Positions 29,348 to 63,532 of a stretch of DNA of 64,000 nt are shown one piece after another; position 1 is the first letter of the stretch; each line of letters starts with the position of its first letter. The position numbers and the translations under genes were made by a program. The DNA lies in the IMG/VR virus record IMGVR_UViG_3300038722_000002, positions 1 to 64,000 of that record; one strand, given 5' to 3'. Source of the DNA: a virus. The notes under the pieces were generated by a model. It searched no databases, was not told the DNA's origin, and saw only the letters and a list, made by a program, of their open reading frames with translations.

Positions 29348-30307
29348 TTAGTTAAATAGCATATTGATAAATAAATTTAAATCTTCTTCTTTGAATGTTT
29401 CCGTAAACCCATCTGGAAACACCTCCTTGCTCACGTAAGAACCTATCCGTTTCTTAATGTAAGACTCTTTAGTGCTGCACTCAGATCCTCTTGGAAAATA
29501 CAAAGTCATAAGTAATTCACTATTTCCAGAAAAACTCTTCAGTTGATGTTCAATCCTGTCCTTAGGTTGATTATTGGTGATTCCATACTTATAAAATACA
29601 TCACCTTCATTCGGGGATAATCTATGAAGGTAGAGATGTGCGGGTTCTTCTGGTCTAAACCCTCTTTTACTGCAAGATGAACATCTTTGTTTTTCTTTAT
29701 TTCTAAGATGATGTAACAATTCGGTGGTTATCTCACCACAGTGTTCGTGCTTAGATTCCACGACCACGCGGTTAGTATCATTGCGCCAATAAGATATGAG
29801 AGTCCTGTCTTTGCTTTCCAACACCTCAATGATTTGCGACTCAGTGTAAGTCCCTATATATCCCGAGCATTCCGTACATCCAGAGGAACCACTAAGTATG
29901 TTACCTACGTTAGCTGATATTCGATGTCCTTGTGGACACCTTAAACGCCACTTACTAGAAGTCGGTGTCGTCTTAGGTGCCTCTATAACCTGAAACCCTT
30001 TCTGTGCTAACCTGTCAGTTAATTGTTTTGTTTTGAATTTTGCACAACCACAAGACTTAGTATTACCTGAAGTTAACGATCTACTCATTACTACAAAATA
30101 ATTTCCAGCACACAATCCCTGACATCTAACTAGAACGTAATTACGCTTATCACGTCTTGATCTTCCTTCAGAAGATATGACATCCAGTGTCCCGTATCGC
30201 AAACCCTGTACATCATTTTGCTTCTTGGATATATCTAGATTGTAATAGGATGAGTAATAATTCCTCGCCTCTTCCTCCGTAGAAAAGCATTCTCTTCTAG
30301 CCTTCAT
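29348..30307 (-). CDS. GIY-YIG-type homing endonuclease
   Basis: The 319-aa protein has an N-terminal zinc-finger-like segment (YGTLDVISSEGRSRRDKRNY, SLTSGNTKSCGC, residues 38-88), a second zinc finger (RCPQGHRISANVG, CTEC), a third C-x2-C (about 209-212), and a GIY-YIG-like nuclease near the C-terminal end (HLYLHRL and VFYKYGITNNQPKDRIEHQ, residues about 224-255). It belongs to the group of free-standing mobile endonucleases. It is inserted between the neck and sheath genes of the late operon. The neighbours are intact. Confidence 0.75.
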   Translation of the reverse strand: MKARRECFSTEEEARNYYSSYYNLDISKKQNDVQGLRYGTLDVISSEGRSRRDKRNYVLVRCQGLCAGNYFVVMSRSLTSGNTKSCGCAKFKTKQLTDRLAQKGFQVIEAPKTTPTSSKWRLRCPQGHRISANVGNILSGSSGCTECSGYIGTYTESQIIEVLESKDRTLISYWRNDTNRVVVESKHEHCGEITTELLHHLRNKEKQRCSSCSKRGFRPEEPAHLYLHRLSPNEGDVFYKYGITNNQPKDRIEHQLKSFSGNSELLMTLYFPRGSECSTKESYIKKRIGSYVSKEVFPDGFTETFKEEDLNLFINMLFN

Positions 30308-40583: not shown

Positions 40584-41193
40584 ATTAAATTAGTAGCAGA
40601 ATAGGAATTAGAGTAATACAGAAGGTGTGGTTGTAAGACTACACCTGTACAAAATACATCACAATATACATTCCACCTGAGTGTGTATTCTAATGTATTT
40701 ATACATAGAGGCGTTTCGGCAAGGTTTCCCTCGCGTGGTAGCAAAAGCAAAACCCGACATATTGGTATATATGGAGCTGTAATGGATGACAGCGTTGAAG
40801 TGTAGTATCAAGAGTATACAATAACAAATCCTAGCTCTGACGTCCTCTGTCAACTGGGTAGGTGGAAATGGAACAAGGCCCGATCACTAAACATACCGAA
40901 TACCCTAAGATAGTCGTAGGTATGTTTACTCACTAGGGTTAAGTAGTGGGAGAATGCGTGTACCAAGGGGCAGGTCACGATAACGCAGAACCGATGACGT
41001 TATAGAGTAAACTCTTTATTTGGAATAAGTAATAATGAAAGTGACCAGTTAGGTCATATTACTTATATTGTACTTTACTAGGTACAATGGTTATATCTTT
41101 CAAGCAGTTATATATTATTAGAATATAATTGTTAGGATAGACCACCGAATAGAGAGGGCCTAGTTGCATCTGAAACTTGAGAATGGAGAGAAT
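40584..41193 (+). other. Non-coding stretch with hairpins before an HNH gene
   Basis: About 600 bases hold no convincing gene. Inverted repeats include 9-bp AGGTGTGGT/ACTACACCT (near 40640) and ACATACC/GGTATGT (around 40895-40930), and an ATTGTAC/GTACAAT pair near 41070-41090. A motif AAGATAGTCG near 40910 resembles the group I intron S element (AAGATATAGTCC), but I cannot find the matching R element and P3/P8 pairings, so an intron is not shown. The HNH gene follows directly. A structured RNA or mobile-element leader is possible. Confidence 0.4.
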
Positions 41194-41997
41194 ATGGGTG
41201 ATTTACTACTGAAATTTAATGTACTAAAAGAGATAGAAGGGAGTGATGAAAACTCCTTCCAGCAGTTCGCTAATGATATGGCTTTGAAATACGGTATATT
41301 AGGAACTACTAATACAGTGATAGATTCGCTGTGGACTAAGAAGCGGCTGAACGTGAAAGACTACTTGCCTCCTAAGAAGAAGAAACGTAAGAAGCAGGAG
41401 AGACGTGGCTACCACTACAGTCCTAACGCAGACCTAGAGTGGTTATCCTTGAGACGTGATGTGATTAAGGTATTAGGAACTCGGTGTCTTTGCTGTAGAA
41501 AGAAACCAAAGAAGACTAAAGACCTACACGTTGACCACGTTCTACCAAGGAGTAGACATCCACACCTAACGTATGACATAATGAACCTTCAAGTGTTGTG
41601 TAAGACGTGTAACTACGATAAGTCAGATATACACGCAACGGATTACAGGACAGACGAACAACGAGAGAGGTTATTGATTATGAAGGGTGTTAGAGGTAAT
41701 TGTGTTGTGAGTGAGGATATGGTAGATGATGTGTATGATGTACTAGGGGATATCCCCACTGAATACCTACAGGAGCTACACAGCTTACTTGAGAAGACGA
41801 AGAACAGTAAAGTAATGCTAGAGGTAGAGAATGATAAACTATGCTCTGTAGTGTACCTGATAAGCTCTAAGGGCAGACATGTCGCCCACTGTAGTAAGAA
41901 TAAGATAGTTGTCCGTGAGTATCGCAACTGGAGCAACGACAACCGAGAGTTTAAGAATATAACCAAGGAGTTGTTGATTAAATGCAGGAAAGATTAG
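41194..41997 (+). CDS. HNH endonuclease
   Basis: The ATG at 41194 follows GGAGAG; a TTG ten codons earlier has no site. The 267-aa protein has a basic linker (KKKKRKKQERRG) and an HNH core at residues 98-144: CLCC, DLHVDHVLPRSRHPHLTYDI, NLQVLCKTCN. His, Asn and the cysteine pairs that bind zinc are present. It is a likely homing endonuclease beside a non-coding stretch, though restriction-like roles are possible. Confidence 0.75.
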   Translation: MGDLLLKFNVLKEIEGSDENSFQQFANDMALKYGILGTTNTVIDSLWTKKRLNVKDYLPPKKKKRKKQERRGYHYSPNADLEWLSLRRDVIKVLGTRCLCCRKKPKKTKDLHVDHVLPRSRHPHLTYDIMNLQVLCKTCNYDKSDIHATDYRTDEQRERLLIMKGVRGNCVVSEDMVDDVYDVLGDIPTEYLQELHSLLEKTKNSKVMLEVENDKLCSVVYLISSKGRHVAHCSKNKIVVREYRNWSNDNREFKNITKELLIKCRKD

Positions 41998-47572: not shown

Positions 47573-48328
47573 TTGGGAAAGCAAGATAAGCATTGTAATC
47601 AACGATCTAATAAACGTAAAGATAAACAGCGCAAAGGTGAACGTGAGATACGCGAGAAGTTTGTAGAGGAGAGGGTACATCGTGCGCCACCAATATTGGC
47701 GAAGACACAGAACCAACGTAAGTATATGCAGGTACTTCGTACAGAGAAGTTAATTGTATGTCGTGGAAGTGCGGGTGTGGGCAAGAGCTTTCTAAGTAGT
47801 GCTTTAGCAGGGGACGCCCTATTGCGCGGCGACATTAGTAAAGTGATTGTTTGCCGTCCCAATGTAGCTATGGGGGAGAGTATTGGGTATAGAAAGGGTT
47901 CTGACGAAGACAAATTATTTCCTTTTGTCCGCCCAATGCTAGATACGCTCAAGAAACGTATGGGTTCGGGTAGTTATGAAGTCGCTATAGCTAGTAAGCA
48001 GATCGAGATCCAAGCACTAGACGCCATACGAGGGATGTCTTTTGATGGTAACGTGGTAATACTGTGTGATGAGATGTCTAACTCAACACCTGCGGAAATC
48101 CGTAGTGTAGTAACTCGCCTCGGTGAGCAAGCCCAGATGGTCATTATGGGCGACCCCACACAGACAGATATACGAGGAGAGAATGGACTGGACTATATCT
48201 GTGGTCTAATAGAGAAATACGACATCCCCGATTCAGCTATTGTAGAGTTCACTTCTGCAGATATTGTACGTTCAGGTATTGCTAAGGCGTTTGTTACAGC
48301 CTTCGAGAAGGAGGGTGTTAATGGCTAA
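47573..48328 (+). CDS. phoH: PhoH-like ATPase
   Basis: The start is TTG at 47573 after AGGAGAAG. A basic N-terminal region (NQRSNKRKDKQRKG) precedes the ATPase domain: Walker A GSAGVGKS (residues 65-72), SKVIVCRPNVAMGESIGYRK, Walker B VVILCDE and GDPTQTD. PhoH family proteins are ATP-dependent, RNA-binding proteins common in lytic phages. The downstream HNH gene starts within its end. Confidence 0.9.
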   Translation: MGKQDKHCNQRSNKRKDKQRKGEREIREKFVEERVHRAPPILAKTQNQRKYMQVLRTEKLIVCRGSAGVGKSFLSSALAGDALLRGDISKVIVCRPNVAMGESIGYRKGSDEDKLFPFVRPMLDTLKKRMGSGSYEVAIASKQIEIQALDAIRGMSFDGNVVILCDEMSNSTPAEIRSVVTRLGEQAQMVIMGDPTQTDIRGENGLDYICGLIEKYDIPDSAIVEFTSADIVRSGIAKAFVTAFEKEGVNG

Positions 48329-49085
48329 GAAACTAGACATACGTTCTGGGGATGTATTTGGGGATTATACCGTAGTCACTGAAGTACCCAAAACCCAACA
48401 GAACCAGAGGAGGTTTCTACTTCGTTGTGTTTGCGGTACAGAGAAAGAATTGGATCTCCCCTCTTTTAAGTACAATAATAGTGGGTGTGGGTGCCGTAGC
48501 ACAGATAAGATGGTAGCGTCAAAACTGAAGAGGGAGGATTTTCATGGTATGACAGGAAGCCCCGAATACAGGTCTTGGGCACGAATCAAGAGTCGGTGCT
48601 TCAATCCTAATAGTGCTGATTTTCCTGACTACGGGGGCAGGGGTATCACTATGTCCCAAGAGTGGCGGGATAGTTTCCCCAAGTTCTACGAACACATCGG
48701 CCCCAAGCCTTCCGATGGTAAGAGATACAGTGTAGACAGGGTAGACAACACCAAAGGATATGTACCTGATAATGTCAGGTGGGCTACGGACGCACAGCAG
48801 GCACGAAACCAGAACGGGAGGTCGAAAGCAAACACTACAGGGGTTACAGGTGTTTACTGGGACACTAAAGTACACCCGACTGGCAGGGATTCTACTCGGT
48901 ACGCCGTAGCGCAATGGGTATCTCTGGAGGGAGTCCGTAAGAAGAAATGCTTCTCGGTCAAAAAACTCGGAGAAGAACTAGCCTTCTTAGCAGCCTGCGA
49001 ATGCCGAGATAAGCAAATGACCTTGCTAAACTTACAAGGGGCAGGTTATACTGACCAGCACCTTAACAATAGGAGTTATACATGA
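48321..49085 (+). CDS. HNH/AP2-type homing endonuclease
   Basis: The ATG at 48321 overlaps the phoH stop and follows GGAGG. The 254-aa protein has a zinc finger (RCVCGTEKELDLPSF, CGC, residues 35-58), an HNH core (RYSVDRVDNTKGYVPDNVRW, residues 135-155) and an AP2-like DNA-binding domain (TGVTGVYWD and on, about 172-225). This matches free-standing homing endonucleases. It sits at the 3' end of phoH without breaking it. Confidence 0.8.
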   Translation: MAKKLDIRSGDVFGDYTVVTEVPKTQQNQRRFLLRCVCGTEKELDLPSFKYNNSGCGCRSTDKMVASKLKREDFHGMTGSPEYRSWARIKSRCFNPNSADFPDYGGRGITMSQEWRDSFPKFYEHIGPKPSDGKRYSVDRVDNTKGYVPDNVRWATDAQQARNQNGRSKANTTGVTGVYWDTKVHPTGRDSTRYAVAQWVSLEGVRKKKCFSVKKLGEELAFLAACECRDKQMTLLNLQGAGYTDQHLNNRSYT

Positions 49086-60460: not shown

Positions 60461-60958
60461 CTATGGAGCTTCAGCAGGGAACGTATCAATTGTATTTAAT
60501 AACCACTCTTTATGTTGCTCCCATAACTCAGCAGCTTTTTTCCCACCCCTCCATAAGACTCGTTCGAGAGTAATAGTTCTCCAATCTTCTATAGAATGAT
60601 TCGCACAACCTATTTGGAGATGTGTGTGAGTGTAGGTTATATTATATTCTGATGTTATAGATAGGTTTTTGACTTGACGTAAATTACCTACTGTTCCCTC
60701 TAAATCACACTTACTCAAGTTACACTCGCTCAAGTTAGACCCTCTCAAGTCAGACTTACTTAAATCAGACTCACTTAAATCAGACTTACTGAAGTTACAC
60801 CCTATCAAGGTAGACTCACTCAAGTTAGACTCGCTCAAATCAAGCTCACTCAAATCGTACCCGATTAAAAATAACAGCTCTCCTTCGGGATCACCTTCTA
60901 AGTATAGCTTGTGTAATTCTAGTTTCTCTTGTAACTCTTGTTTAGTGATGGTTTTCAT
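60461..60958 (-). CDS. Pentapeptide-repeat protein
   Basis: From about residue 34 of this 165-aa protein the sequence has about 11 A(D/N)LSx-type repeats (YDLSELDLSESNLSES, then CNFSKSDLSESDLSKSDLRG). These fold into a square beta-helix that in Qnr and MfpA mimics DNA and protects or blocks gyrase. The last 55 residues form a separate region (HSIEDWRTITLERVLWRGGK). The ATG at 60958 is chosen; a TTG at 61054 has no site. The phage target is unknown. Confidence 0.75.
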   Translation of the reverse strand: MKTITKQELQEKLELHKLYLEGDPEGELLFLIGYDLSELDLSESNLSESTLIGCNFSKSDLSESDLSKSDLRGSNLSECNLSKCDLEGTVGNLRQVKNLSITSEYNITYTHTHLQIGCANHSIEDWRTITLERVLWRGGKKAAELWEQHKEWLLNTIDTFPAEAP

Positions 60959-61041
60959 TATCTTAACTATAACCCCTTGTTGTGTGTTATTGTATTGAGT
61001 GGTTCCATTATAAGGATATGAAGATAAAGTACAACCTTTAA

Positions 61042-61230
61042 TCAACGAATACAATGTTCGTGGTGTATGTCTATTAACCTATCAGCGGCTTGACCTCTGG
61101 GCCATACATTATACACCTTTCTGGACAAGTTTTTATTCTGCACTTGTACATTTAACCACCAACGACACTGTTGGTTATACTTCCGCTGTATTCCTAGTGC
61201 GTTTTCTCCACACCTTTCAGCCCACTCCAT
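61042..61230 (-). CDS. Hypothetical protein, 62 aa
   Basis: The ATG follows TAGGAGATA, a strong ribosome binding site. The protein (MEWAERCGENALGIQRKYNQ, QCRWWLNVQVQNKNLSRKVY) is small and basic with several tryptophans. No family is recognised. Confidence 0.55.
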   Translation of the reverse strand: MEWAERCGENALGIQRKYNQQCRWWLNVQVQNKNLSRKVYNVWPRGQAADRLIDIHHEHCIR

Positions 61231-61354: not shown

Positions 61355-63532
61355 CTAGATTTGTGAAGCAATCTTAGCTCGAATGTCTCGGAGGGTGGTT
61401 TTATTGTACAACTTACCATCCTTGAACACTGTACGAAGCAAACCTTGCCCTTCTTGCTCAGGTGTCTGCTCCTGATATAGAGTAATAACACCTTCCTCAT
61501 TATGGTCTACACGCAACAAACCTTTAGCTGACTTCTTACCTTGATCAGTCTTAGGGTCTTTACCGAAGTCAATCTGCTCACCTTTGTCGTTCCATGCACA
61601 GGTAGCCTTGATAGCTGACCCGTGAGTGTCACGGGTGACATATTGGTAACTGTAGGAGCCGATGCCAAGCACTACGCTAGGAGCAAACCCCTTAGCCATC
61701 AAACGGGTGTGGATCTCTTTTTGACGCTCTAGGGTGATACTGTCACCGTAGATAGCACCGATATGGGAGTCTAGTAGTTTGTATCCCTCTGAGGTGGTTG
61801 TGCCACCGAAGATGTCCCAGAGGGATTCTACTAGACCTTTGGCTTCTGTAGAGCTAACTTCCTCGTACTCGTTATCATACATAGTATCATAGGTGCCCCC
61901 TGAAGACACGTAGTAGAATTTATCATCAGCTTTGTTCAGGTACAGCCTTTTTCTGCCTCGTATTGTTAAGGTCTGTATGTTATCCACTGTCTCATACTCC
62001 AATCCACACAGCACGCTAACAGGGTCTCCAGAATCTGGACGAATGACCGTGGTACCGTCACGAGCCATGATATCATCTTTCAATAGTGGTAAACCTTCCT
62101 CAACAAACTTCCAGAAGTCATAGCTGTCTGATACATGAGAAACAATCCCACTTGGAACCTCTGTGAACAACTTCTCCCGTACAAAAGCAACCTCAGCATC
62201 AAACTTACTGATGCCCCGCTCCTTCTCTAGTACCGCAATGTAGCTTGTTGCGATTGCATGTTCTGTAGCTGGTACACTGCAACCTACCAACTCAGTCTCG
62301 CAGTCAGCACCGTAGTATATCTCAGCCAAATCAATAGCTGGAACAGTATCAGTGCCAGCAAAACCTGCTGCTAGATGACCAAAACCTGACATTGCAGCTG
62401 CTTGTGGGCCAAAACAACCTCGCATGGAGAAATCGTGACACATAAACGGGACAGTTGCCTCGTCTAAGCCTGTCTTACGGAAGCTCTCTACAGTTTGCTT
62501 CATGTAAGCTGTAGCTGTAGTGGCTGAAGTCTGCATAGGCCATACATACGTGCTGATGATAGTCTCTAGGAAGCCTACGAGCCAAGGGTATCCGTCTACT
62601 GTGTTGGTTACAGTAAAGCACGGTACACCGTAGGGGCAAAAAGTACCCTCTTCCATAGACTTAATCTCAATTGGAAGATAACCTAAGTCATGTAGCTCCT
62701 CAAAATGTTTCACATCGAAGTCACTGCCGAAATAGTTATCTAATCGGCGCTTCAAGCTACGGACAGCACCTTCCTTACTCAGGTTAAAGAATGTATTATT
62801 CCACTCATTTACCATGTAGTGCATCATCATATACTGCAAACCTACGTGGACAACACCGAAGTCCTCTGGGATGTAGGATAGTCGTCCACTCCTAGCAGTG
62901 TAATTTTCATATAGGCGCACAATATTGGTGTGCAGGAACTTCTTGTGTGCAAATTTGTAACCGTCTGCTTTAGTGATAGCTGACATACTATTCTCCTCAT
63001 TGGTTTTATCGTATATTCTATTAATATGCCTCAGGAAACCTCCCTTGGTCATATCTCTCTTCATGTGGTTACAGGCACCACAGCAAGGTAGACAATTACT
63101 ATAGGTATACCCTAAGTTGTTGTCAACCCGATCTACTCCGTTCATCTCTACTTTGAAAATACCCCTAGCTTTCGGTTGGCTTCCACAGTAGTTACAAGAA
63201 TCTGTTATTAGTGAGATGAACTCTTCATCAGTTAATTGGTACTCGTACCCCCTACTTTTAGCGGCTTGCTTATAGCTGTTGATCTCTTTATTGTACGCTC
63301 GGAGATTTTTGGGTATTCTAGGTACACTCCTTGTGCACTTGTTGCAACACTTCTTAGGCCGCTGTCTCCGCCTGAGTTGTGAAGTAGTAATATAGCAGGT
63401 AACCCCACAACTACACAGGCACTTCCACTTTGGTGTACCACCAATTAACTCCCTGTCACTGATCACCTTTAGTTTACCAAACATCTTCCCTGTCAAGGCA
63501 TCATCCGCTAGGTGTGTTGACCCATTCTTCAT
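61355..63532 (-). CDS. HNH endonuclease fused in frame to nicotinamide phosphoribosyltransferase
   Basis: Residues 1-180 are a homing endonuclease: zinc finger (CLCSCGVTCYITTSQLRRRQ, CCNKC), then SCNYCGSQPKARG, GVDRVDNNLGYTYSNC and CCGACNHMKRD. Residues 183-725 are NAMPT: HDFSMRG (366-371; Asp), GTDTV, SVPATEH (419-425; catalytic His), RPDSGDP and IYGDSIT. NAMPT joins nicotinamide to PRPP, or in NARP1 systems to ADP-ribose pyrophosphate. An internal ATG at 62986 has GAGGAG 6 bases upstream, so free NAMPT (543 aa) can also be made. The start at 63532 overlaps the stop of the Prs-like gene. Confidence 0.88.
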   Translation of the reverse strand: MKNGSTHLADDALTGKMFGKLKVISDRELIGGTPKWKCLCSCGVTCYITTSQLRRRQRPKKCCNKCTRSVPRIPKNLRAYNKEINSYKQAAKSRGYEYQLTDEEFISLITDSCNYCGSQPKARGIFKVEMNGVDRVDNNLGYTYSNCLPCCGACNHMKRDMTKGGFLRHINRIYDKTNEENSMSAITKADGYKFAHKKFLHTNIVRLYENYTARSGRLSYIPEDFGVVHVGLQYMMMHYMVNEWNNTFFNLSKEGAVRSLKRRLDNYFGSDFDVKHFEELHDLGYLPIEIKSMEEGTFCPYGVPCFTVTNTVDGYPWLVGFLETIISTYVWPMQTSATTATAYMKQTVESFRKTGLDEATVPFMCHDFSMRGCFGPQAAAMSGFGHLAAGFAGTDTVPAIDLAEIYYGADCETELVGCSVPATEHAIATSYIAVLEKERGISKFDAEVAFVREKLFTEVPSGIVSHVSDSYDFWKFVEEGLPLLKDDIMARDGTTVIRPDSGDPVSVLCGLEYETVDNIQTLTIRGRKRLYLNKADDKFYYVSSGGTYDTMYDNEYEEVSSTEAKGLVESLWDIFGGTTTSEGYKLLDSHIGAIYGDSITLERQKEIHTRLMAKGFAPSVVLGIGSYSYQYVTRDTHGSAIKATCAWNDKGEQIDFGKDPKTDQGKKSAKGLLRVDHNEEGVITLYQEQTPEQEGQGLLRTVFKDGKLYNKTTLRDIRAKIASQI

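Follow-up and report, generated by a model that had tools for sequence, protein, structure and literature searches.

We analysed a window of 64,000 nucleotides (positions 1 to 64,000 of IMG/VR virus record IMGVR_UViG_3300038722_000002, an 83,539-base record from a single metagenomic assembly), which is a marine-type phage fragment. Near its end, on the minus strand, lies one open reading frame that starts with ATG, encodes 725 aa and contains zero internal stops (Table 1). The original prediction that an HNH endonuclease here runs in a single frame into a complete NAMPT-type transferase was borne out by the frame itself and by PHROG and NCBIfam matches. The PHROG matches split the frame into two parts, with HNH and endonuclease VII-type families aligned to residues ~12–182 and the nicotinamide phosphoribosyl transferase family phrog_448 aligned to residues 181–724. 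We refer to the transferase as Namat and to the gene upstream of the fusion as adps, for reasons given below.

Table 1 Features of the fused frame and its surroundings in the window.
Feature	Position	Strand	Basis or remark
Adps-type gene ('prs'), 284 aa	63529..64000, on to record base 64383 (L007:3529-4383)	-	Prs-superfamily
ATGA overlap of the Adps stop TGA and the HNH start ATG	63529..63532	-	
HNH nuclease-Namat fusion, 725 aa	61355..63532	-	Single open frame
PacI-like HNH endonuclease part, residues 1-182	62987..63532	-	PHROG 1035/3322/3118/374; PacI 3ldy profile and fold matches
HNH core, residues 113-158 (CxYC ... GxDR ... N ... CxxCN..K)	63059..63196	-	Most of the invariant columns lie here
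Promoter-like TTGACA-17-TATAGT inside the HNH gene (lead only)	63098..63126	-	11/12 matches
Linker NEENS, native Namat leader read in frame	62987..63001	-	Leader alignment with H101, PT11-V22, L017, L018 and others
Namat Shine-Dalgarno AGGAG, within the fused frame	62993..62997	-	Common to relatives
Namat-type nicotinamide (ADP-)ribosyltransferase, 543 aa from its own ATG	61355..62986	-	phrog_448, NF006629, 9w5w/9w5x
Namat selectivity-clamp signature GSYSYQYVTRD	61628..61660	-	Fits GSX.X.X.TRD

The transition between the two parts coincides with the limits of both families. Among 85 free-standing HNH homologues, 84 ended between −6 and +30 residues from fusion residue 182 (median +2), the lone exception being a frame that ended at +143 (L128); the part first delimited as residues 1–180 is indeed N-terminal, with a family end better placed at ~177–182. 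The preserved transferase start proposed at ATG 62986 is intact and has its good ribosome-binding site, AGGAG, standing 6 nt ahead. The closest Namat relatives have a leader of AGGAGAA, a short spacer and ATG that matches the leader of the fusion at this ATG, and the linker NEENS is therefore the Namat leader read through. Because invariant residues of both HNH and Namat families are kept, and the boundary falls where HNH homologues end and Namat homologues start, we do not regard the open frame as a product of chance.

The endonuclease part

The HNH part resembles the endonuclease PacI in both profile and predicted fold. A profile of 40 relatives matched PacI (3ldy; E = 2e-10), and PacI was the only Foldseek match below 1e-3 (E = 2.7e-4) for the AlphaFold model of this part (mean pLDDT 88.6). 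All 14 invariant columns of the 40-sequence family alignment are kept, most of them in residues 113–158, and the beta-beta-alpha-metal core with its C..C, DR, N and C..CN residues is present. By sequence and predicted structure the fused nuclease is a PacI-like HNH endonuclease, with cleavage as its predicted activity. No close relatives of the HNH part were found by single-sequence scan, and many were found by profile scan. They are free-standing genes of ~180 aa in unrelated phages, including Acinetobacter phage Liucustia, Pseudomonas phage PSA11 and Lactococcus phi93. PacI-like HNH genes have been described in lactococcal phages (PMC12724721); the fused nuclease resembles that type (Phi93_03; PacI 3ldy) in its top profile and fold match and in its relative in Lactococcus phage phi93, but the known members are separate genes, whereas the frame of the fused one stays open into the next gene. 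GC content was uninformative (0.43 in the HNH gene vs. 0.46 in adps and 0.46 in namat). The same phage holds four more HNH or related endonuclease genes (window 29348–30307, 41164–41997 and 48264–49085; L008:2708-3283), that at 48264–49085 overlapping the end of a PhoH-like gene.

The transferase and its operon

The transferase part matched phrog_448 (E = 5e-174) and scored above the cut-off of NCBIfam NF006629, with profile positions 4–462 of 465 covering the transferase nearly end to end. Its best solved match was SPbetaL1 Namat (9w5w/9w5x), at 365 bits for 9w5w compared to 156 for 7yqo and ~141 for NAMPT entries such as 2gvg, so that it is nearer to a solved Namat than to Nampt. The selectivity-clamp motif fits the Namat SCH signature GSX.X.X.TRD, with aromatic X, set out by Lan et al. 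(PMC12774641). Residues of the Namat active site and clamp are kept, as is every residue that is invariant in ten phage homologues. The name NAMPT, under which the transferase was first reported, is thus corrected to Namat of the NARP1 pathway. Given the signature and the best solved match, the 'prs-NAMPT' pair is most likely Adps-Namat, the NAD+-reconstitution operon NARP1, with the upstream gene assigned to Adps rather than Prs solely by its pairing with Namat.

NARP1 rebuilds NAD+ from ADPR and nicotinamide. As in NARP1 operons, a Prs-superfamily gene is followed by a transferase with the Namat signature, both being predicted enzymes here; the two are contiguous in most relatives, whereas in the window an HNH gene, which overlaps the upstream gene by ATGA and is in frame with namat, parts them. 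A homologous pair in phage ICP1, NrsAB, counters NADase defence and carries a fitness cost where that defence is missing, and in most isolates it is turned off by a stop codon (nrsB Y29*; PMC11559045). The earlier description of Namat as a gene the phage needs is therefore too strong, because NARP1 is conditional, and costly in hosts that lack NADase defence (PMC11559045). Downstream of the fusion (window 60461–61054), a pentapeptide-repeat-like protein with repeated SDLSES-type motifs is encoded.

The adps-namat junction in relatives

The original prediction called for a search for relatives that lack the HNH part at the same junction, and empty sites prevailed. A Prs-like gene lay upstream in 59 of 70 distinct viral Namat loci, with a gap of ≤67 nt in 42 of the 59, and in 56 of 80 bacterial loci, with such a gap in 46 of the 56. 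The empty adps-namat junction is thus the usual state. HNH fused to Namat occurred at 0 of 160 other Namat loci, none of which had a genuine Namat extension of HNH size, and no phage record covered 80% of a 259-aa query spanning the HNH-Namat junction. Two loci with long in-frame extensions upstream of Namat (L231 and L235) were discarded, since adps ends 5 nt before Namat in both and the extensions are alternative frames over adps. Near-identical DNA of the fusion junction was not found in IMG/VR. Terminase comparisons gave only two nearest relatives among the viral contigs (37%) and Pseudoalteromonas phage H101 as the nearest phage (51%).

Where an HNH is present at the junction, it is usually encoded by a gene of its own. 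Alteromonas phage PT11-V22, H101 and an IMG/VR locus (L060) all carry I-HmuI-type HNH genes there. Those of H101 and PT11-V22 (63% identical as proteins) resemble the fused nuclease in position, in a start that overlaps prs and in an end within the transferase leader: they begin inside the end of prs and finish ...GAG GAG AAA TAA, with the stop in GAGGAGAAATAA, 2 nt ahead of the transferase ATG. They differ in being I-HmuI-type (NUMOD4/HNH_3) and properly terminated, and the H101 transferase is without the Namat signature. BLAST detected no similarity between the H101 HNH and that of the window; since the two are unrelated, the adps-namat site has been invaded at least twice, independently. 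A separate gene of identical sequence, which the original prediction held would count against a fusion, is not what these phages carry, as their separate genes belong to another HNH family. In Vibrio phage 5P1b, a related HNH frame lies close to this junction, and a gene annotated as phosphatase comes after it.

The window HNH shows intergenic insertion and uninterrupted alleles in relatives, as a homing endonuclease would. We do not file it as a typical free-standing homing gene, because it lacks a stop of its own and reads into Namat. An intein or intron-encoded endonuclease was rejected, as the insert lies between two complete genes with the adps and namat ends intact.

Several other features of these junctions were observed. 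The H101 'NAMPT' (L263:47787-49340) that lacks the Namat signature finishes at its C terminus in strongly Namat-like sequence (KKSAKGLLRVE...QTPEQEQQGELKTVF), which gives it the look of a chimera. Macro-domain genes (Pfam Macro, phrog_335) lie between the Prs-like gene and Namat at L069:2962-3489 and L089:2971-3498, with further macro-domain cargo, annotated as hypothetical or phosphatase, at L010:2600-3079 and L013:2647-3117; ADP-ribose-handling cargo of this kind would suit the pathway. Small phrog_1238 genes ('phosphoheptose isomerase', no Pfam match) occupy the Prs-like/Namat junction at L056:3097-3495, L090:2966-3412 and L092:3065-3481, and may be unrecognised NAD- or ADPR-related cargo.

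Origin of the fusion

The ends of HNH homologues, the Namat leaders and the empty sites together point to insertion of an HNH gene ahead of the Namat ribosome-binding site, followed by loss of the HNH stop, and we consider it probable that the fusion arose in this way, with the Namat start kept and the fusion a tolerated by-product. In the order of events that we infer, a free-standing PacI-like, probably homing, HNH gene would have entered the NARP1 operon between adps and namat, landing just upstream of the Namat ribosome-binding site. The HNH stop, which lies within the Namat leader in comparable insertions, would then have been lost, opening the frame through the leader into Namat. Ribosomes leaving adps may restart at the ATGA overlap and make some 725-aa fusion, while ATG 62986 with its retained AGGAG may yield a free 543-aa Namat that would carry out NAD+ rebuilding from ADPR-PP and nicotinamide. 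Free Namat thus probably persists, and the selfish insertion most likely left the fusion as a tolerated by-product, not as a two-function enzyme under selection. Phi93_03, the only phage HNH of the PacI type with an in vivo test, showed no significant exclusion activity (PMC12724721), which counts against the homing reading.

Two published systems show parts of this arrangement. At T4 nrdA, the HNH gene mobE, like other free-standing homing genes of T-even phages, sits between operon genes with overlapping stop and start (UAAUGA for nrdA-mobE), and translation restart at the overlap has been proposed for it, but in the accessible part of that source no fusion to the downstream gene is reported (PMC2988022). 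The ShiLan domain is an HNH that hides in another frame of a phage methylase gene (PMC11855218). Like the window HNH it leaves its host gene open end to end (PMC11855218), but it lies inside the host gene in another frame, whereas the fusion described here is in frame and upstream of Namat.

The promoter-like site lies 112 nt before the Namat ATG and is treated as a lead only, because such a site appeared in 1.6% of synonymous resamplings of the HNH gene. RNA hairpins at the two starts were not clearly better than shuffles.

The proposal that a mobile endonuclease landed between prs and NAMPT and lost its stop gains from the empty sites, the other junction HNH genes and a loss at the natural end of the HNH; its weak point is a sequencing or assembly error. 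In that case the phage would carry three separate genes, with the HNH gene between adps and namat and its stop within the Namat leader, and the contig would lack one base. Stops in the +2 frame (TAA, TGA and TAG) lie 22, 13 and 4 nt before the Namat ATG, and one extra A in the leader (GAGGAGAAATAG) would end the HNH at ...EEK*, as in H101 and PT11-V22. No second case of the fusion was found among the 160 Namat and 85 HNH loci, and the DNA polymerase of the contig is likewise broken by a frame change (L007:16567-18841, record bases 76567-78841; 562-aa and 198-aa frames with an overlapping ATG). The polymerase is one gene of ~730 aa in Vibrio phage 1.084.O and Barba19A; its C-terminal part here aligns over its whole length with a separate polymerase family, phrog_15833, and a natural split is therefore possible. 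Against an error, the A-runs at the junction are short (2–4 bases), and a single substitution is equally able to remove the stop, since any of codons 172, 174, 176, 179 and 180 would become a stop on changing one base; the fusion could therefore stem from a one-base indel or point change, whether this arose in the phage or during assembly. The 20 further long frames checked in the contig all look complete relative to their families save the two halves of the polymerase, which argues against an error-rich assembly. One metagenomic contig accommodates both a real lost stop and a one-base error, and we regard the artefact as unlikely, with a weight that is still appreciable.

Three further readings appear improbable. 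The fusion could have been selected as one protein, the HNH part localising or regulating Namat through DNA binding or Namat stabilising the nuclease. The intact invariant residues in both halves and a confident AlphaFold helix (residues 163–181) that runs through the linker would suit such a protein, but the conserved independent Namat start and the lack of a second fusion among the Namat loci, HNH homologues and phage records searched make it very doubtful. Just as doubtful is a non-homing role in which the HNH, like other accessory genes at the junction, is cargo of the operon and serves the phage as a nuclease or in cutting host DNA. In favour of cargo, PacI acts as a restriction enzyme, the junction also houses macro-domain genes and other small ones, and RyDEP sits within the NARP1 operon of phage DyoEdafos (PMC13232231); however, the other junction HNH genes are of the I-HmuI homing type, and PacI-like relatives are scattered beside unrelated genes in unrelated phages. 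A scarcely probable last reading, which would parallel the Y29* off-state of ICP1 nrsB (PMC11559045), makes the in-frame HNH a reversible attenuator of a costly anti-defence operon, in which read-through from adps would lock Namat into a weak fusion and leave less of it free, one changed base would bring the separate gene back, and the nuclease would gain persistence because its deletion would put the Namat start at risk.

Implications

Each element has been described or annotated before: NARP1, PacI-like HNH genes, and the presence of HNH genes between prs and NAMPT. An HNH joined in frame to Namat was found nowhere else in the loci or the published literature searched, where the ShiLan insertion (PMC11855218) is its closest parallel. 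If the lost stop is real, the fusion would represent a selfish endonuclease gene caught in the act of merging with its neighbour, with the start of that neighbour kept as a safety line. Unrelated HNH genes and other cargo have repeatedly landed at the adps-namat junction of the NARP1 anti-defence operon, and cultured phages, H101 and PT11-V22 among them, make it possible to test homing into or out of such an operon.
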